Source: Gemmatimonadales bacterium (lineage in GTDB: Bacteria; Gemmatimonadota; Gemmatimonadetes; Gemmatimonadales; GWC2-71-9). Taken from it: 64,000 nucleotides of DNA. Below, piece after piece: positions 12,381 to 53,914 of this stretch. The stretch lies in contig DATAOI010000027.1 in the NCBI GenBank assembly GCA_036265815.1, forward strand, positions 1 to 64,000, in the 5' to 3' direction. A program made the position numbers and the translations under genes. Positions within the stretch are counted from its first letter, which is position 1. Each line of letters begins with the position of its first letter. The notes beneath the pieces were generated by a model. The model saw only the letters and a list, made by a program, of their open reading frames with translations, ran no database searches and was not told where the DNA came from.

Positions 12381-12777
12381 GGGCACCGGTTTGGGAGTGT
12401 GAATACCCAATCTGCCGGTCGAAGAAGAGCCACGCCACCATCGCCGAGCTCCGGGCCACTCCTCCACGCTGGTATGGGTGATCCAACACAACATTCCCAC
12501 CCGTCGTACCGAATGACCTCGGGGTCAATGTCACTCTGCCAGGAATAGAAGACGGTCGCCTTCATGAGGGCACTCGCTGCCGACTGTCACCGGGGAGGGC
12601 TTCAGGAATGACGTAAGCTGCAATGCATCAATCGCTTGCGTAAGCAACCTGAAAGTGGAGCCTGCAGCTCAGTCAGTGAACTCAGATGAGCCGACTGTCT
12701 CTCCCTGCTTGACGCTCCCCAGCTTCGGGATATATTCGGTATTGTGGTCCGAACACACGCCGCCCCCGGGGTGCCCT
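12381..12777. other. Intergenic region between kinase and damage-type operon
   Basis: About 400 bases between divergent genes. Its right end holds the strong plus-strand promoter and operator (12709-12755). The left part (12381-12700) has no convincing gene. No clear kinase promoter was found in it, and the open frames there resemble nothing I recognise. Confidence 0.6.
12709..12755 (+). promoter_or_regulatory. Promoter and putative damage-response operator, zinc-ribbon operon
   Basis: TTGACG (12709-12714), a 16-base spacer and TATATT (12731-12736) form a near-consensus promoter. At the expected transcription start lies TTCGGTATTGTGGTCCGAACA (12735-12755), with TTCGG and CCGAA as inverted arms. 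The dnaE2 promoter at 50718-50764 has the same -35, the same spacer length, TAGATT, and TTCGGTATCCGAACA in the same place. A repressor at this site would block initiation. LexA-type control is an inference; no lexA is in the window. Confidence 0.7.
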
Positions 12778-12927
12778 ATGTCTTCCCCTCAGCTCTCCCC
12801 CTCCCCTACCATCGCCACGCCGGCCGGCTCCGCTCACACCCGCGTCTGCCCCGAGTGCGCCGGCCCGCTGGTACGCTCCTCCGGCTGTCTGAGCTGCACC
12901 CAGTGCGGGTGGGGACGATGCGGGTGA
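12778..12927 (+). CDS. Small zinc-ribbon protein
   Basis: A 49-residue protein. After a Ser/Pro/Thr-rich N-terminus it carries CPECAGPL...CLSCTQCGWGRCG, a four-to-six Cys zinc ribbon very like the C-terminal ribbon of B12-dependent ribonucleotide reductase (NrdJ), but here a free-standing gene. ATG 12778 lies about 35 bases after the predicted transcription start and is the first gene of the operon. Its 3' end overlaps the radical SAM gene by 10 bases. Whether it binds nucleic acid or a partner protein is unknown; the reading frame and cysteines argue that it is real. Confidence 0.65.
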   Translation: MSSPQLSPSPTIATPAGSAHTRVCPECAGPLVRSSGCLSCTQCGWGRCG

Positions 12928-13988
12928 CGCGGGTGACGGCATCCGCCGCTCGAGATCGGCCGGCGGCACAACTCGACCTGTTGCCCGGCCAGTCCGCGCC
13001 GGCCGGCTGGTCCCTGCTCGACCAGCGCGAGCGCGGCACCCGCTTCCTGGCGCTCTCCGTCCGCTCGGCGCTCAACACTCCGGCCACCACCCGCATGGGG
13101 TTCTGGTCCATCAATCCCTACGTCGGGTGCGAGTTCGGCTGCACCTACTGCTACGCGCGAGACACCCACCGTTACGCCATGGAGCGCCACGGGGCCGACG
13201 GCGAGGAGCCGATGCCCGCCTGGCAGGCGTTCGAGAAGCGCATCCTGGTCAAGACCGACATCGTCGAGGTGCTGGCCCGCACGCTCGATCCGGCCCGGCT
13301 CGCCGGGCACTCGCTGGTCATCGGCACCGCCACCGATGCCTACCAGCCAGCCGAGCGGCGGTTCCGCCTCACCCGCGGCATCCTCGAGCTCCTGCTGCGC
13401 TACCGCGGTCTGTCCATCGGGCTCATCACCAAGTCGCCGCTGGTCACCCGGGACCTGGGGGTGCTTCAGCGGCTGAGCGAGCGGCACGAGGTCACCGTCA
13501 ACATCTCCCTCGCCACCGCCGATCCCCGGCTGGCCCGGCGCCTCGAGCTGCGCTCGCCCATGCCGGCGGTCCGGCTCAAGGCGCTCCGCCGCCTCACCGA
13601 GGGCGGGGTCCACGCCGGACTGCTGGTGGCCCCCATCGTCCCCGGCGTCACCGACGATCGGGCTGGACTCTCGCAACTCATGGCGGCGGCGAAGGCGGCG
13701 GGCGCCCGCTACGTGGTCGGGTCGGCGCTCCGGCTCGGCCCCGCGGCACGGCACCGCTTCCTTCCCGTCCTCACCCGCGAGTTCCCCCACCTGGCCCGGC
13801 GCTACGAGCGGCACTACGCCCGGCGCGAAGGGGTGAGTCCCGCCTATCAGCAGGCGCTGAGCCGCCGGCTGCATGAGCTGCAGCGGCTCCATGGATTCCC
13901 GGTCGACGAAGGCATGCGAAGGAAGCAGCAGCTCGAGGGGCACGAACCGCGCGCGGTTCCCGCTCCCGAACAGCCGTCCCTGCTGTAG
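12918..13988 (+). CDS. Radical SAM protein, SplB-like (Rv2578c / PA0069 family)
   Basis: A 356-residue radical SAM enzyme. C71, C75 and C78 in CEFGCTYCYARD bind the 4Fe-4S cluster that cleaves S-adenosylmethionine. NPYVGC before it and the partial TIM barrel after it (LVIGTATDAYQPAE, LLITKS-like LITKSPLV, PIVPGVTD) match the SPL-related family of unknown function. Near the N-terminus, outside the catalytic domain, is QLDLL (18-22), which looks like a sliding-clamp binding motif. It sits between a zinc ribbon and an inactive Y-family polymerase, so a DNA repair or damage-tolerance role is likely. Spore photoproduct lyase activity itself is not implied. ATG 12918 overlaps the upstream gene. Confidence 0.85.
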   Translation: MRVTRVTASAARDRPAAQLDLLPGQSAPAGWSLLDQRERGTRFLALSVRSALNTPATTRMGFWSINPYVGCEFGCTYCYARDTHRYAMERHGADGEEPMPAWQAFEKRILVKTDIVEVLARTLDPARLAGHSLVIGTATDAYQPAERRFRLTRGILELLLRYRGLSIGLITKSPLVTRDLGVLQRLSERHEVTVNISLATADPRLARRLELRSPMPAVRLKALRRLTEGGVHAGLLVAPIVPGVTDDRAGLSQLMAAAKAAGARYVVGSALRLGPAARHRFLPVLTREFPHLARRYERHYARREGVSPAYQQALSRRLHELQRLHGFPVDEGMRRKQQLEGHEPRAVPAPEQPSLL

Positions 13989-13996
13989 CCGCCAGT

Positions 13997-15340
13997 ATGC
14001 CCCGCTCCGTCCTCTTCATCGATCCTCCCGCGTTCTGCACGTCCCTCGAGGGGCTCGTCGCCCCCGCGCTCAGGACCCGGCCGGTGGCGGTGGCGCCGCC
14101 CGGCGCCGATCGCGCCACCATCATCGCGCTGTCGGCCGAAGCGCGGCTGGCGGGAGTCTCCCAGGGGATGCCGGTGCGGCAGGCCCGGAAGATCTGCCCC
14201 GACCTGGTGCTGCTGCCGCCCAATCCGGTGCTCTACGCCCGCGCGTCGCGCGCGCTGCACGAGATCTTCCGGATGTACGCGCCGGCCATCGAGCCAAGAG
14301 GATACGGCCACGCCTTCCTCGATCTCACCGGCACCGGTCGGCTCTTCGGACCCGCCGTGGACGTGGCCGCGCGGGTGCAGCGCGAGGTGTGGCAGCGGCT
14401 CCGGCTGCCGGTCTCGGTCGGTGTGGCGGCCAACAAGCTGGTCAGCCAGGCGGCCACCACCGTGGTCAAGCCCGAGCCGCTGCTGGAGGTGCCGGGCGGC
14501 GCCGAAGCCAGCTTCCTGGCGCCCCATCCGATCATCGTGCTGCCCGACCTCTCGCCCCGCATCCGGAGCCGGCTGGACGATTACCAGCTCGACCGCATCG
14601 GCGAGGTCGCGGCCATCGCCGAGAGCGCGCTCTGCGCCGTCTTCGGCAGTACCGGGCGCACGCTGCGGGCGCGGGCGCGCGGCATCGATCCCCGCCCCGT
14701 GCTTCCGCCCGAACGGCAGGCCGAGTTCCACACCGCCCACACGCTGGCCACCGACACCAACGACATCGGCGTGCTCCACCCGCTCCTCCGGCTCCTGAGC
14801 GAGCGGCTCGGCCGCCGTCTCCGCCAGGGCAGGCTGGTAGCGCGGCGGCTCAGCGTGGAAGCCACCTACGCGGATCACACCACTGTAGTGCGCGCCGTCC
14901 CGCTGCCGGGCGCCATGCTCGATGCCGAGCTTTGGAGCGCCGCGCGCCGCGCCTTTACTCTGGCCAACGCCAAGCGTCTCGCGGTCCGGGCGGTGGCGCT
15001 CACGCTGGATCGGCTGGAGGAAGCGGATGCGCAGCTGGAGCTGTGGGAGAGCGGGCAGCAGGATGCGACGGCTCGTCCTTCCGTGCTCGACGGCGCTCGC
15101 GCCACTCTTCAGGTCCCCTCCCCGGTTCGCGAGCACGCGCTCCAGGGCGCGATGGATCGGATCCACTCCCGCTACGGCCGCCGCGCCGTGGCCTGGGCGC
15201 ACGCCGCGCCTTCCAGCAGGGGCTCCGCGCGCATCGTGCTGCTCAAGACGTTCGACGCGAGTTCATCTGCTTCGCTGACTCCTGAGTCAGCAGCGACCAA
15301 GGCCACTCTTGCGGCGTCACGCGACTCTGCGATACTATGA
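13997..15340 (+). CDS. Y-family DNA polymerase homologue lacking catalytic acids (ImuB-like)
   Basis: A 447-residue protein aligned along its length with DinB/ImuB polymerases (FIDPPAFCTSLE, SVGVAANKLVSQ, RARGIDPRP, little-finger region to about 400). One metal Asp remains (D9), but the normal SLDEA box reads GYGHA, with G104 and H105 in place of the essential Asp-Glu pair. It should therefore be unable to add nucleotides. Like ImuB it keeps a clamp-type motif, QLELW (346-350). In mutasomes ImuB bridges the clamp and the polymerase DnaE2, and a dnaE2 gene with a matching promoter lies at 50.8 kb. It is separated by 8 bases from the radical SAM gene. Confidence 0.85.
   Translation: MPRSVLFIDPPAFCTSLEGLVAPALRTRPVAVAPPGADRATIIALSAEARLAGVSQGMPVRQARKICPDLVLLPPNPVLYARASRALHEIFRMYAPAIEPRGYGHAFLDLTGTGRLFGPAVDVAARVQREVWQRLRLPVSVGVAANKLVSQAATTVVKPEPLLEVPGGAEASFLAPHPIIVLPDLSPRIRSRLDDYQLDRIGEVAAIAESALCAVFGSTGRTLRARARGIDPRPVLPPERQAEFHTAHTLATDTNDIGVLHPLLRLLSERLGRRLRQGRLVARRLSVEATYADHTTVVRAVPLPGAMLDAELWSAARRAFTLANAKRLAVRAVALTLDRLEEADAQLELWESGQQDATARPSVLDGARATLQVPSPVREHALQGAMDRIHSRYGRRAVAWAHAAPSSRGSARIVLLKTFDASSSASLTPESAATKATLAASRDSAIL
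15309..15338 (+). promoter_or_regulatory. Possible promoter of the DUF1080 operon
   Basis: TTGCGG (15309-15314) and TACTAT (15333-15338) are 18 bases apart, inside the 3' end of the polymerase gene and 33 bases before ATG 15372. Moderate match only. Confidence 0.4.
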
Positions 15341-15371
15341 GCCAACCGCTCGTGACGGAGCGTCCACGCCC

Positions 15372-16079
15372 ATGCACCTTAGGCCCAACCTCGTCATACG
15401 CTTCGCCGCCCTCGCGCTGGTAGCCTGTGCCCCGGCGCGTGGCAGCGCGCAGGTCAAGTCCGGTGAGCAGGATGTCGCAGCCGCGAGCCCCAACACGCTG
15501 ACCGCCGAGGAGCGCACCGCGGGCTGGCAACTTCTGTTCAATGGGGTGAGCCTGGACGGCTGGAAGGCCAGCGACAAGCCGGGCACGTTCAGCGTGGCAC
15601 ACGGGCAGATCATCGTGCGCGGTCCGACCTCGCACCTCTTCTATCTCGGTCCCGTCCAACATCACGACTTCACTGACTTCGAGCTCAGGCTCGACGTGAT
15701 GACCTATCCCGGGGCGAACTCCGGGGTCTATTTCCACACGGAGTGGCAGGAAAAGGGGTGGCCCGACAAAGGCTACGAGGTGCAGGTGAACAATTCGCAC
15801 GCCGACACCAGCCGCACCGCCGGGCTCTGGGGCATCAAGGACAACCCCATCCCCCCCGCCAAAGACAGGACCTGGTTCACTCTTTCGATCACCGTTCAGG
15901 GCAAGCACATCGTCACCAAGGTCGATGACAAGGTGATCGTGGACTACACCGAGGAAGACCACCCGGTCCGCCCACCCGAGCTTGCCCACCGCCTGATCTC
16001 GCACGGGACGTTTGCCCTCCAGGGACACGACCCCAAGAGCGAGGTGCATTATCGCAACATCAAGGTCCGGGTCCTCTAG
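15372..16079 (+). CDS. DUF1080 (3-keto-disaccharide hydrolase-like) exported protein
   Basis: A 235-residue envelope protein. The N-terminus is a signal peptide with a lipobox-like LVAC (about residues 16-19). The rest is one DUF1080 concanavalin-like beta-sandwich: WQLLFNGVSLDGWKAS, DFTDFELRLDV, GANSGVYFHTEW and the closing [10 protein letters not shown]. Characterised relatives act on 3-keto-glycosides, and others are carbohydrate-binding. A second DUF1080 gene follows directly, and a GMC-type dehydrogenase operon faces it. ATG 15372 begins the signal peptide. Confidence 0.88.
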   Translation: MHLRPNLVIRFAALALVACAPARGSAQVKSGEQDVAAASPNTLTAEERTAGWQLLFNGVSLDGWKASDKPGTFSVAHGQIIVRGPTSHLFYLGPVQHHDFTDFELRLDVMTYPGANSGVYFHTEWQEKGWPDKGYEVQVNNSHADTSRTAGLWGIKDNPIPPAKDRTWFTLSITVQGKHIVTKVDDKVIVDYTEEDHPVRPPELAHRLISHGTFALQGHDPKSEVHYRNIKVRVL

Positions 16080-16803
16080 GCCCCGGCTCGCGGCCGGATG
16101 GCTGCTCGCCTTCGCTCTCGCCGGCTGCTCATCCGAGAAGTCGTCCACCACGGTTTCGATGCCGATGAAGCCCGACTCCAGCGGCGGCGCTTCCGTCCCC
16201 GCCGAGGGAGAGTGGCGCACGCTCTTCGACGGCGGATCGCTCGAGGGCTGGCGAGGATTCAAGAAGGACAGCGTGCCCGCGGGCTGGCAGGTGGTGGACG
16301 GGGCGCTCACGCGGGTCGGGAAGGCAGGCGACCTGATCACCCGGGACGAGTTCGGCGATTTCGAGCTTACGCTCGAGTGGAAGGTCGCCGAAGGCGGCAA
16401 CAGCGGGATCATGTATCGGGTCACCGAGGATGCCGGCGAGACCTACGAGAGTGGACCCGAGATGCAGGTGCTCGACGACGCGCGCCACAAGGACGGCCAG
16501 TCGCGCCTCACCGCCGCCGGCTCCGCCTATGGGCTGTACCCCGCTCCGGCCGGTGTGGTGAAGCCGGCCGGCGAATGGAACGCGGTGCGCATCTTGGTTC
16601 GGGGAAACCACGTCGAGCACTGGCTCAACGGCACCAAGGTGGTCGAGTACGAGCTTGGGAGCCCCGACTGGAAGGCGAAAGTCCAAGCCAGCAAGTTCAA
16701 GCAGTGGCCGGGCTACGGGCGCGCGGCCTCGGGACACATCGCGCTCCAGGATCACGGCGACCGGGTGGCATATCGTAACATCAAGGTGCGCACGCTCCCG
16801 TGA
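16012..16803 (+). CDS. DUF1080 lipoprotein, second copy
   Basis: A paralogue of the preceding gene in another frame. It has a lipobox (FALAGCSS), [43 protein letters not shown] and [10 protein letters not shown], a complete DUF1080 domain. The only in-frame ATG before the signal sequence is 16012, which overlaps the upstream gene by 68 bases. The residues before the hydrophobic stretch look unlike a normal N-terminus, so a rare start nearer 16048-16090 is possible. Its stop overlaps the GTG of the MFS gene. Two different DUF1080 proteins in tandem is typical of glycoside-degrading clusters. Confidence 0.82.
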
Positions 16804-18092
16804 GCCACGCCGCGGGGTCGGCGCGGGCCCGTCTGTCGGCGATGATGTTCCTGCAGTACTTCGTCTGGGGCGCGTGGTTCGTCACCATGGGCACCTACCT
16901 GACCCGGACGCTGCATTTCACGGGCTCACAGGTCGGGCTGGCGTACGGCGCCACCGCGATCGCCGCGCTGGTCTCCCCATTCTTTCTCGGGATGGTCGCC
17001 GATCGCTTCTTCGCGAGCGAACGGCTCATGGCTGGCCTCCACCTGTCGGGCGCGGGCCTGCTCTGGTTCGCCTCCTCGCAGACCAGCTTCGCCACGTTCT
17101 ATCCCGCGCTGATCGCGTACGCGCTGTGTTACATGCCGACGCTCTCTCTGACCAACTCGATCGCCTTCCACCATGTGCACGACCCGGGCCGCGAGTTTCC
17201 GGTCATCCGGGTGCTCGGCACCGTCGGGTGGATCGCTGCCGGCATCCTGGTCGGCCGGGTCCTCCACGCCGATGCGCTCGTGCTGCCGATGCGGGTTGCG
17301 GCGGTCGGATCGGTGGTGCTCGGGCTCTACTCCCTCGCGTTGCCCCACACGCCGCCCAAGGCCGCGGGCGCGCCCTTCAGCGCGCGCGACGCGCTGGGGC
17401 TCGACGCGCTCGCGCTGCTCCGCGACCGCGCCTTCCTGATTTTCGTCATCGGCTCCTTCCTGCTCTGCATCCCGCTTCAGTTCTACTATACCTTCGCGAA
17501 CCCCTACCTCAACGAGATCGGCGCGCCTGACCCTGCCTTCATCCAGACGTTCGGACAGATGTCGGAGATTGGGTTCATGCTGCTCCTCCCTCTGGCACTC
17601 CGGCGCTTGGGGATCAAGGGGATCATGCTCGGCGGGATGCTCGCCTGGGCGCTCCGGTACTTCGCCTTCAGCGCCGGTGACGCCGGCCCGGGAATGTGGC
17701 TGGTCTTCGCCGGGATCCTGCTGCACGGCATCTGCTACGACTTCTTCTTCGTGGCGGGTCAGATCTACACCGACGATCGCGCCGGCGTGCGGAGCCGCGC
17801 CGCGGCGCAGGGTTTCATCAACTTCGTGACCAACGGGCTGGGCTACTTCGTGGGGGCCTTCGTGTCGGGAGCGGTGGTGGAGCGCTGGACCCGCCCGCCT
17901 GGGATCCACGACTGGTCGACCATCTGGCTGGTGCCCGCGGTGATGGCGCTGGTGGTGTTCGCCGCCTTCGCTCTGCTTTTCCGGCCCCGCCGGGTCAGCG
18001 GTTCGGATGCCAGCGGCCGCGAGCCACCGCAGGGACGAACGACTCCAGCCCCCGCGGCGGGAAGCGCACCGTCTTCTCCTGCTCGGCGCTGA
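16800..18092 (+). CDS. MFS transporter, nucleoside:H+ symporter (NupG-like) family
   Basis: A 430-residue membrane protein with about 12 hydrophobic helices and the NupG-type opening [18 protein letters not shown], followed by [10 protein letters not shown]. The family moves nucleosides or related sugars with protons. Beside two DUF1080 genes and a 3-dehydrogenase-type operon it may carry a glycoside or keto-sugar instead. The start is GTG 16800, overlapping the previous stop. Its last 98 bases overlap tail to tail with the convergent Gfo/Idh/MocA gene, giving a Pro/Ser-rich C-terminal tail. Confidence 0.85.
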
Positions 18093-50717: not shown

Positions 50718-50764
50718 TTGACGCCCCCCTCCCCGGCCGTAGATTGAGATTCGGTATCCGAACA
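50718..50764 (+). promoter_or_regulatory. dnaE2 promoter and putative damage-response operator
   Basis: TTGACG (50718-50723), 16 bases, TAGATT (50740-50745), then TTCGGTATCCGAACA (50750-50764), in which TTCGG and CCGAA are perfect inverted arms around TAT. Box spacing and operator position match the promoter at 12709-12755, where the same half-sites are 6 bases further apart. The GTG start lies 28 bases after the operator. Confidence 0.7.
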
Positions 50765-50791
50765 AAGGCCGAACCTCCGCCGCCGAGCCAC

Positions 50792-53700
50792 GTGGTCCAC
50801 CTCCACCTCCACACCCACTTCTCTTTCGGCATCGGCGTGTCGAGCCCGGAGACGCTCGCCACGGCGGCCGCGGAGCGCGGGTTCCAGGCGCTCGCCTGCA
50901 CCGACACCAACGGGGTCTACGGCGCGGTCGAGTTCCAGCGCGCCTGTCTGGCCGCCGGCATTCGACCGATCCTCGGCGCGCATCTGGTCGCGGACGGGCA
51001 GGAGACGGTCGCCCTCGCCACCAGCCAGCGCGGCTGGGCCGCGCTCTGCCGGGCTGCCACCGCCATTCACTGGCGGGCCTCGCTCCCCGCCTTCTGTCTC
51101 TCCGCCCAGCTCGCCACCGACCGCGAGGGGCTCATTCTCATATCCCAGGACACCGCTTTCCTGGAGCGGGTCGTCCGGCTGAGCGGGCCGCGCGACCTCT
51201 ACGCCGAGCTCCGCCCCGGCAAAGAGCGCCACGTGGTACTGGCCGCAGCGCGGCGGCTGGGGGTGCCGGCGGTGGTGACCAACGGGGTCGTCGCGGCACA
51301 TCCGGAGGATTGGGGACGGCACCGGCTGCTCCGGGCCATCGCCCTCAACACCACGCTCTCCGCCCTCACCGCCGGCTCCGGCCAGGCCAGTGTGTCCGCC
51401 GACCTGGCGCCCCGCGAGGCGTGGCTCCGTCCAGCCGACGATCTCGCGCGGCTCTTCCCCGACTGTCCCGAGGCCGTGCGCGCCACCGACGCCATCGCCG
51501 AGCGCTGCGAGTATCAGATCCCCATAGGTCGCGTGGTGGCGCCGCGATTCGCCGACGCGGGCGACGCCCTCCAGCAGCTCCGCGCCCTTGCCTACGCCGG
51601 CGCCGAGCGCCGCTACGGCACCATCGCCCCGGTGACGCGGGACCGGCTGGAGCGCGAGCTCGGGATCATCGGGATGAAGGGGTTCGCCGACTATTTCTTG
51701 GTGGTGCGGGACATCGTCGCCAACGGCCCCACCCACTGCGGCCGTGGCTCCGTCGCCAACTCGATGGTGAGCTACTGTCTCGGCATCACTCACGTGGAGC
51801 CGCTGGGGGCCGGGCTCCTCTTCGAGCGCTTCCTCAACCCCGAGCGGAAGGACCCGCCCGACATCGACCTCGATTTCCCCTGGGACGAGCGCGACAAGGT
51901 CCTGGCCTACGTCTTCCGCCGCTATCCCCATCCCCAGGCGGCGATGGTGGCCAACCACAACTGCTTCCGTCTCCGCGGCGCGCTGCGTGAGGTGGCCAAG
52001 GTGCACGGCCGACCGGCGGGCGAGATCCGCGAGGTCACCCGTCGGATTCCAATTTTTGAGGACGTCTCGCTGGCGGAAACGCTGGAGACCCATCCCAACT
52101 TCAGGGCGCTCGACCTGCCGCCCGCCTGGCGGGAGTTCGCCCGCCTGGCGGAGCCGCTGGTAGGGACGCCGCGCCATCTCTCGGTGCATCCGGGCGGCGT
52201 GGTCATCGTGCCCAGCGCACTCACCGACTACGTCCCCACCGAGCCGGCGGTGAAGACCCTCGCGGTGGGTGGGGCAGCCGGCCCTGAGCAAAGCGAACGG
52301 GTCCCCGTCATCCAGTTCGAGAAGGATGGCGCCGAGGACGCGGGGCTGGTCAAGATCGACCTGCTGGGCAACCGCTCGCTCGCCGTCATCCGCGATGCCA
52401 TCGACGCGGTGCACCGGCACACCGGCCGGCAGATCGACTACACCTCCAGCGACCCCGCGGATGACGAGCCCACCAAGGCGCTCTTCCGCACCGGCCGGAC
52501 CATGGGCGTCTTCTACACCGAGTCACCCGCCTCGCGGATGCTCTGCGCCAAGAGCCGGGCCGACACGTTCGAGCTGCTGGTGCTCAATACCAGCATCATC
52601 CGGCCCGCCTCCAACCGCTTCATCCGGATCTATCTCGAGCGGCTGCACGGCGCGCCCTATGAGCCGCTCCACCCGGTGCTGCGCGATACCCTGGGCGACA
52701 CCTTTGGCGTGATGGTCTACCAGGAGGACGTGGTCAACGTCTGCGCCGCCTTCGCTGGCATGCCGCTCGCCACGGCCGACGGGCTCCGCAAGTCGCTCTC
52801 CAAGAAACGTCCGGGCAAGCATCTCGGCGCCTATGCGGAGGAGTTCTTCACCGGCGCCCTGGCGCTGGGCCGCGACATCGAGACCATCAAGCGGGTGTGG
52901 GAGATGATCATGTCGTTCGCGGGGTACAGCTTCTGCAAGGGGCACTCCGCGTCCTACATCCAGGTGGCGCAGCACTCGTGTTACCTGCGGGCGCACTATC
53001 CCGCGGAGTTCATGGCGGCGGTGCTGGGGAACGGCGGCGGGTTCTATCACCCCTTCGTCTACGTGGCGGAGGGGATGCGGATGGGGCTCACGGTGCTGCC
53101 ACCGGACGTGAACGCCAGCGAGTTCCGCTCGAGCGGGGAGGGTCGGGAGCTCAGGATCGGACTGCAGTTCGTGAAGGGGCTCTCGGCGGAGGGGGTGGAG
53201 CGGCTGCTGGCGGCACGGGAAAGTCGCCCGTTCAAGAGCCTGGTCGACCTCCGCGCCCGCACCGGCATCGCACCCGCGGACCTGCGTGCCCTCATCAAGG
53301 TGGGCGCGCTCGACTCGATCGCCGGCGGCTGGACCCGCCCAATGATGCTCTGGCTGGTGGATTCCATTGCGGACTGCGTCCAGAGCCCGGACGATCACCC
53401 GGGCGACTGGTTCGATCACCTGCCGCCGGCCGTGCCCGTGCTCAAGGAGTACGCCCCCGAGCGCCGGCGGCGGGAGGAGTTCGCCTCACTCGGCTTCATC
53501 ACCGACGACCACCCGATGCGGCTCCACGCCGAGGAGCTCAAGCGCTTCCGGATCTGCCCCAGCACCGAGCTGCACCGCCACGTGGGCGAGCACGTGCTGG
53601 CGGCGGGGATGCTCACCACCGCCAAGCCGGTGCACACCGCCAAGGATGAGCCGATGGAGTTCGCCACCTTCGATGATGGGGATGGCCTGATCGAGACCGT

Positions 53701-53914
53701 GCTCTTCCCCCAGGTGTATCGTGAGCGGGGTCACGTGCTGTTCGATCAGGGGCCGTTCATCTTTCGGGGGAAGGTCGAGGAGGAGTTCGGCGCGGTCACC
53801 CTTACCGTCACTGATTTGGATCGACTGGACCGGATGCTCGTGAAGCTGTCTGCCCGAAGGTCATCTTACCTTCCTGGGCAAAGCGGATCTTCCGCTTCCC
53901 GAAAGGGGTCGTGA
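50792..53914 (+). CDS. dnaE2: Error-prone DNA polymerase DnaE2 (ImuC)
   Basis: A 1040-residue C-family polymerase. The N-terminal PHP domain starts HLHLHTHFSFGIGVSSPE. The palm has PPDIDLDFPW (near 356) with two catalytic Asp, preceded by HCGRGSVANSMVSYCLG. CKGHSASYIQVAQHSCYLR and the fingers region follow, and a C-terminal OB fold ends near FRGKVEEEFGAVTLTV. Length and sequence fit DnaE2, the damage-tolerance polymerase, rather than replicative DnaE1 (about 1160). GTG 50792 is chosen; an in-frame TTG at 50744 lies upstream of the predicted transcription start. The 3' end overlaps a convergent gene by 107 bases. Confidence 0.93.
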   Translation: MVHLHLHTHFSFGIGVSSPETLATAAAERGFQALACTDTNGVYGAVEFQRACLAAGIRPILGAHLVADGQETVALATSQRGWAALCRAATAIHWRASLPAFCLSAQLATDREGLILISQDTAFLERVVRLSGPRDLYAELRPGKERHVVLAAARRLGVPAVVTNGVVAAHPEDWGRHRLLRAIALNTTLSALTAGSGQASVSADLAPREAWLRPADDLARLFPDCPEAVRATDAIAERCEYQIPIGRVVAPRFADAGDALQQLRALAYAGAERRYGTIAPVTRDRLERELGIIGMKGFADYFLVVRDIVANGPTHCGRGSVANSMVSYCLGITHVEPLGAGLLFERFLNPERKDPPDIDLDFPWDERDKVLAYVFRRYPHPQAAMVANHNCFRLRGALREVAKVHGRPAGEIREVTRRIPIFEDVSLAETLETHPNFRALDLPPAWREFARLAEPLVGTPRHLSVHPGGVVIVPSALTDYVPTEPAVKTLAVGGAAGPEQSERVPVIQFEKDGAEDAGLVKIDLLGNRSLAVIRDAIDAVHRHTGRQIDYTSSDPADDEPTKALFRTGRTMGVFYTESPASRMLCAKSRADTFELLVLNTSIIRPASNRFIRIYLERLHGAPYEPLHPVLRDTLGDTFGVMVYQEDVVNVCAAFAGMPLATADGLRKSLSKKRPGKHLGAYAEEFFTGALALGRDIETIKRVWEMIMSFAGYSFCKGHSASYIQVAQHSCYLRAHYPAEFMAAVLGNGGGFYHPFVYVAEGMRMGLTVLPPDVNASEFRSSGEGRELRIGLQFVKGLSAEGVERLLAARESRPFKSLVDLRARTGIAPADLRALIKVGALDSIAGGWTRPMMLWLVDSIADCVQSPDDHPGDWFDHLPPAVPVLKEYAPERRRREEFASLGFITDDHPMRLHAEELKRFRICPSTELHRHVGEHVLAAGMLTTAKPVHTAKDEPMEFATFDDGDGLIETVLFPQVYRERGHVLFDQGPFIFRGKVEEEFGAVTLTVTDLDRLDRMLVKLSARRSSYLPGQSGSSASRKGS

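Follow-up and report, generated by a model that had tools for sequence, protein, structure and literature searches.

The direct repeat TTCGG-N6-TTCGG is very probably the LexA (SOS) operator of the class that contains the Gemmatimonadales genome examined here, and LexA is predicted to bind it. The repeat has a period of 11 bp and is the element common to two promoters in the window (the whole stretch of 64,000 nucleotides of DNA that was analysed), one preceding an operon with an imuB-like gene and the other preceding dnaE2. An earlier note on this DNA had raised the possibility that a motif at these promoters is the damage-response operator of the lineage. This proposal is well supported once the motif is recast as a direct repeat, which is present before lexA, recA, uvrA, imuB and dnaE2.

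Two related promoters and their genes

The predicted promoter of the imuB-like operon (TTGACG-N16-TATATT, 12709-12736, plus strand) carries its -35 box (TTGACG) at 12709-12714 and its -10 box (TATATT) at 12731-12736. In a pattern scan it was the sole promoter-like match in the region 12500-16900, agreeing at 10 of 12 positions. The predicted dnaE2 promoter (TTGACG-N16-TAGATT, 50718-50745, plus strand) has its corresponding boxes at 50718-50723 and 50740-50745. CCGAACA follows downstream of both, at 12749-12755 and 50758-50764, which gives the common consensus TTGACG-N16-TANATT, then CCGAACA in exact register. Measured from the first base of TTGACG, CCGAA begins 40 nt downstream in each of the two promoters, and the same register is seen in the dnaE2 promoters of three congeners. 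The two -35 boxes, the 16-base spacers, the -10 boxes and CCGAACA are all found at both loci where the earlier note had placed them, and the promoter-plus-motif pattern as a whole occurs genome-wide at these two promoters only.

The first gene of the operon (12778-12927, plus strand) encodes a zinc-ribbon protein of 49 residues with a weak resemblance to the C-terminal ribbon of class II ribonucleotide reductase, and relatives also have a gene of this kind next to that for the radical SAM protein. The second (12918-13988, plus strand) encodes a radical SAM protein of the Rv2578c/PA0069 kind, with matches to Pfam Radical_SAM (7e-16) and to NCBIfam rSAM_Rv2578c (5.5e-66, below the equivalog cut-off of that family). 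The third (13997-15340, plus strand) encodes a Y-family polymerase homologue without catalytic residues (Pfam IMS, 2e-37, with an IMS_C domain), in which residues D103-E104 of E. coli DinB are aligned with G-H when the protein is aligned to DinB structures. Loss of this catalytic pair is the hallmark of ImuB, the dead partner of DnaE2 (PMC3919608).

At the second locus, dnaE2 (50792-53914, plus strand) encodes a second DnaE-type polymerase of 1040 residues, to which the other DnaE of the genome (G000:C102) is 34% identical. The window protein scores 559 bits, short of the NCBIfam error-prone cut-off of 939 bits, and the name dnaE2 is taken from its copy status and its company. Each of the two promoters is predicted to drive one half of a split translesion-synthesis cassette, an arrangement that would account for their common control.

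A direct repeat adjoining SOS genes

The candidate LexA box of the imuB-like operon, TTCGG-GATATA-TTCGG (12724-12739, plus strand), extends over the -10 box and the last part of the spacer. The candidate box of dnaE2, TTCGG-CCTTTG-TTCGG (50758-50773, minus strand), lies just past the expected transcription start and stands in the same place in dnaE2 orthologues. These are the only two copies of TTCGG-N6-TTCGG in the window, where 0.13 would be expected. When all spacings from 0 to 15 between TTCGG pairs are considered, N6 alone occurs twice.

Searches of the whole genome, which were made with exact patterns only, returned 18 copies of TTCGG-N6-TTCGG compared to three of a reversed-pattern control that is not a strict null. 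The genes adjoining these sites include recA (one copy in its promoter), lexA (two tandem copies), uvrA, a uvrA paralogue, the imuB operon, dnaE2 and a TIGR03916-like repair-type radical SAM gene. The core SOS genes recA and uvrA and the translesion-type genes imuB and dnaE2 all carry a site in the genome under study. About seven of the 18 sites fall within coding sequence or near genes without an evident repair role. As a rough estimate, 18 sites in 4.59 Mb correspond to a chance of about 0.0008 that any given 200-base promoter carries one, and at that rate the occurrence of sites at recA, lexA, uvrA, imuB and dnaE2 together is not luck.

At uvrA (L036) the site ends 4 bases before the ATG, and the uvrA paralogue (L023) has its own site, distinct from that of uvrA, about 30 bases before its start. 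Sites also precede three genes that have no Pfam or NCBIfam match. These genes follow directly after intergenic sites in L022 (1706-1975), L028 (1215-1472) and L033 (1558-2517), and are candidate new SOS genes.

Conservation across the phylum

LexA was detected in 197 of 200 genomes of the phylum, and the lexA promoters of 65 genomes were read, including 61 from the same class (nine families, f1 to f9) and four from f10, which belongs to another class. At least one exact copy of TTCGG-N6-TTCGG is present before lexA in all 61 class genomes, and 48 of them have at least two. The predominant distance between TTCGG starts at lexA is 11 (109 pairs). These promoters are typically arranged as TTGnnn - TTCGG-N6-TTCGG - n - TANNNT, wherein the first copy fills the 17-base spacer and the second begins about 25 to 27 bases past the start of the first.

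Exact copies of the repeat outnumber the reversed control by 2.9 to 7.4 fold in the summed counts of eight class families, which leave out f5. No such excess of the TTCGG pattern is seen in f10 (44 compared to 61 for the control, a ratio of 0.72). The lexA genes of this family are instead preceded by TTCGC-N6-TTCGC, once or twice, in all four genomes, although genome-wide counts of that variant are not enriched there.

Beyond lexA, most dnaE2 orthologues whose promoter could be read are preceded by the site, and nine have it near the start. It is missing at five dnaE2 loci whose start was readable, and some of these may be inside operons. Replicative dnaE promoters provide a clean internal control, with the site in none of the 14 that were read. 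In relatives, the site also accompanies the imuB-like and zinc-ribbon/radical SAM genes, in some cases with a separate copy for each. At recA the site is weaker or absent in some families. Outside f1, an exact copy is found in eight of 22 class genomes and most of the others have TTCG[C/T]-N6-TTCGG, while no site was found within 400 bases of recA in f9 and in one f4 genome.

Other site-bearing genes in relatives, named from sequence reading, encode an Lhr-like helicase, a UvrD-like helicase and a DinB-like polymerase. In three relatives from f1 (L175, L188 and L254) the gene for an AcrB-like efflux pump has a site upstream, which hints at damage-linked efflux. Further sites (L239, L247, L241 and L249) precede genes that encode secreted or outer-membrane barrel-like proteins, for which no link to repair is apparent.

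LexA as the predicted repressor

The LexA protein of this genome is canonical. It contains a winged helix-turn-helix domain and scores 213.7 bits against TIGR00498 (cut-off 110.95), and its Ala-Gly cleavage site and the Ser and Lys of LexA self-cleavage align with those of E. coli LexA. All 61 LexA proteins associated with TTCGG boxes have TVHEH in the recognition helix, and all four f10 proteins associated with TTCGC boxes have TVHKH. This parallel change is suggestive of LexA as the binder, although it may represent a single evolutionary event. A broader reading, on which our judgement is evenly balanced, is that the LexA of Gemmatimonadota came to recognise a direct repeat whose core is particular to it (TTCGG-N6-TTCGG), and that the charge swap in the helix accompanies the replacement of one base in each half-site, with the 11-bp geometry left unaltered. 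If so, a repressor and its regulon shifted specificity in concert, and the two classes would be a natural document of that shift.

Many genomes from f2 to f9 also encode a second, diverged LexA-like protein with another helix (TVSEHL, TVTEHL and others) and no box in front of its gene. Such proteins were noted at L084, L086, L087, L088 and L089 (families f2, f6 and f9). In one genome of two contigs (G159; L083 and L235) only a diverged paralogue was detected, and yet TTCGC-N6-TTCGG is present near recA. In this organism LexA may have been lost, be missing from the assembly, or have been replaced.

The existence of these paralogues raises the alternative that another damage regulator, either a paralogue with the TVSEHL or TVTEHL helix or a WYL/PafBC-like activator, binds the repeat and that lexA is merely one of its targets. 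We consider this very unlikely. Most f1 genomes, including this one, have a single full-length LexA match and nonetheless keep the box, and a paralogue is therefore not needed as an explanation. Moreover, the paralogue genes lack the box that precedes lexA itself, the site overlaps core promoter elements as would be expected for a repressor, and it is the helix of LexA that changes together with the box in f10.

We infer LexA binding, the dimer geometry, repression and induction from sequence, site positions, conservation and the association with SOS genes. In the proposed mechanism, the two half-sites, separated by one turn of the helix and exposed on one side of the DNA, would be bound by a LexA dimer that blocks RNA polymerase. 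At the lexA and dnaE2 promoters the sites overlap the -35, -10 or start region, a placement suited to such a block. At lexA, one copy would act from within the 17-bp spacer and the second from near the start point. In the imuB operon the bound copy would cover the -10 box, and at dnaE2 the reverse-oriented copy would cover the start region. Upon DNA damage, activated RecA would presumably trigger self-cleavage of LexA and release these genes, including the split mutagenesis cassette of a catalytically dead ImuB-like protein and DnaE2.

The inverted arms

The earlier note had described the shared operator-like motif as an inverted pair in which TTCGGTAT faces CCGAACA. Part of this description holds, in that CCGAACA is in register and the pair is beyond chance in the window: TTCGGTAT-N0-8-CCGAA occurs twice compared to 0.02 expected, and none of 100 shuffles reached two copies. 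When the gap is widened to TTCGGTAT-N0-9-CCGAA, the two window copies are the only ones in the 4.59 Mb genome. However, the TTCGGTAT arm lies at differing positions, overlapping the -10 box in the imuB-like operon and standing 4 bases past it in dnaE2, and the inverted pair is not a conserved unit. The note had also suggested looking for TTCGGTAT-N0-6-CCGAACA, with arms 3 or 9 bases apart at the two promoters, before recA, lexA and uvrA, where it is absent; genome-wide it is found at these two promoters only. At lexA, which the note had singled out as the informative gene, the direct repeat is present and the inverted form is not. Absence before other repair genes, which the note had named as refuting evidence, applies to the inverted form and not to the direct repeat.

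An inverted third half-site is nevertheless real at both window promoters and recurs in some imuB/zinc-ribbon and dnaE2 promoters, often with a 9-base gap (9 bases in L011, L148 and L151; 8 in L016). This recurrence could indicate that TTCGGTAT-N3-9-CCGAACA serves as a palindromic operator for some regulator dedicated to the mutagenesis cassette. Such an operator is very unlikely, since the third arm accompanies only 11 of the 115 direct-repeat sites examined, with gaps that range from 0 to 19, and lexA promoters are essentially without it. With the motif also missing before other repair genes genome-wide, we rejected the inverted pair as an operator.

A better account of the arms is that two convergent direct-repeat sites meet there, and we read them as a second, often degenerate, candidate LexA site. 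In L016 the second site is full, convergent with the first, and a perfect copy. In the window, the predicted second copy of the operon is CCGAA-CACACG-CCGcc (12749-12764, minus strand), a partly degenerate direct repeat in reverse orientation located where dnaE2 has its full site. The plus-strand copy of the operon is perfect and the minus-strand copy half-degenerate, while dnaE2 has the opposite arrangement. A chance resemblance of two GC-rich promoters, which might be suspected from the differing spacing of the arms, has next to no probability given the shuffles, the genome counts and the conservation over nine families; the likeness of the two promoters is not due to chance.

Comparison with known LexA boxes

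LexA boxes are known for many phyla, and Gemmatimonadota is an abundant soil phylum with few cultured members. Our literature searches, which covered freely accessible full texts, found no published description of a LexA box from this phylum. Among the direct-repeat boxes, GTTC-N7-GTTC is found in Acidobacterium capsulatum. It is also the LexA box of the Alphaproteobacteria (PMC3323433; PMC8565304). This box and the candidate described here share a period of 11, the pattern TTC-N8-TTC and an association with core SOS genes. The earlier note had recognised none of the standard LexA boxes at the two promoters, and this needs amending for dnaE2, whose minus strand at 50760-50774 literally fits GTTC-N7-GTTC. 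However, a G precedes the first half-site in only 19 to 31% of the lexA sites in our collection, and the conserved core is TTCGG, with GG after TTC. The alphaproteobacterial box as such was rejected because dnaE2 alone fits it, by overlap, and GTTC half-sites are not conserved in the lexA sites.

The statement of the note does hold for the Gram-positive palindrome, as CGAAC-N4-GTTCG has no match at the two promoters even with one mismatch. The half-sites of GAAC-N4-GTTC have TTC(G) in common with those of the candidate box, but they form a palindrome rather than a direct repeat.

The LexA box of Balneolaeota is the direct repeat TTACACATATTTTWTACATA, which was validated by EMSA and controls a regulon that includes TLS polymerases, a helicase and a radical SAM protein (PMC7739468). 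This box can be read as ACATA-N6-ACATA and then has the same 5+6 geometry, with a period of 11, as the Gemmatimonadota candidate. The half-site sequence differs from TTCGG, and the Balneolaeota box is experimentally validated whereas that of Gemmatimonadota is predicted from sequence.

With a firm motif, SOS regulons could be predicted for hundreds of Gemmatimonadota genomes, and the motif places the dead-ImuB and DnaE2 mutagenesis genes under predicted damage control. Point mutants offer a way to test the change of helix and box that separates the two classes. Direct-repeat LexA boxes as such are already established, and the present candidate adds another with an 11-bp period, whose predicted TTCGG core differs from both the alphaproteobacterial and the Balneolaeota boxes. 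With regard to its targets, imuA-imuB-dnaE2 is a LexA-regulated mutagenesis cassette (reviewed in PMC3919608), and the genes described here resemble it in that a dead Y-family homologue and DnaE2 stand under one candidate operator. Unlike that cassette, they are split between two loci 38 kb apart, with the imuB-like gene in an operon with zinc-ribbon and radical SAM genes.
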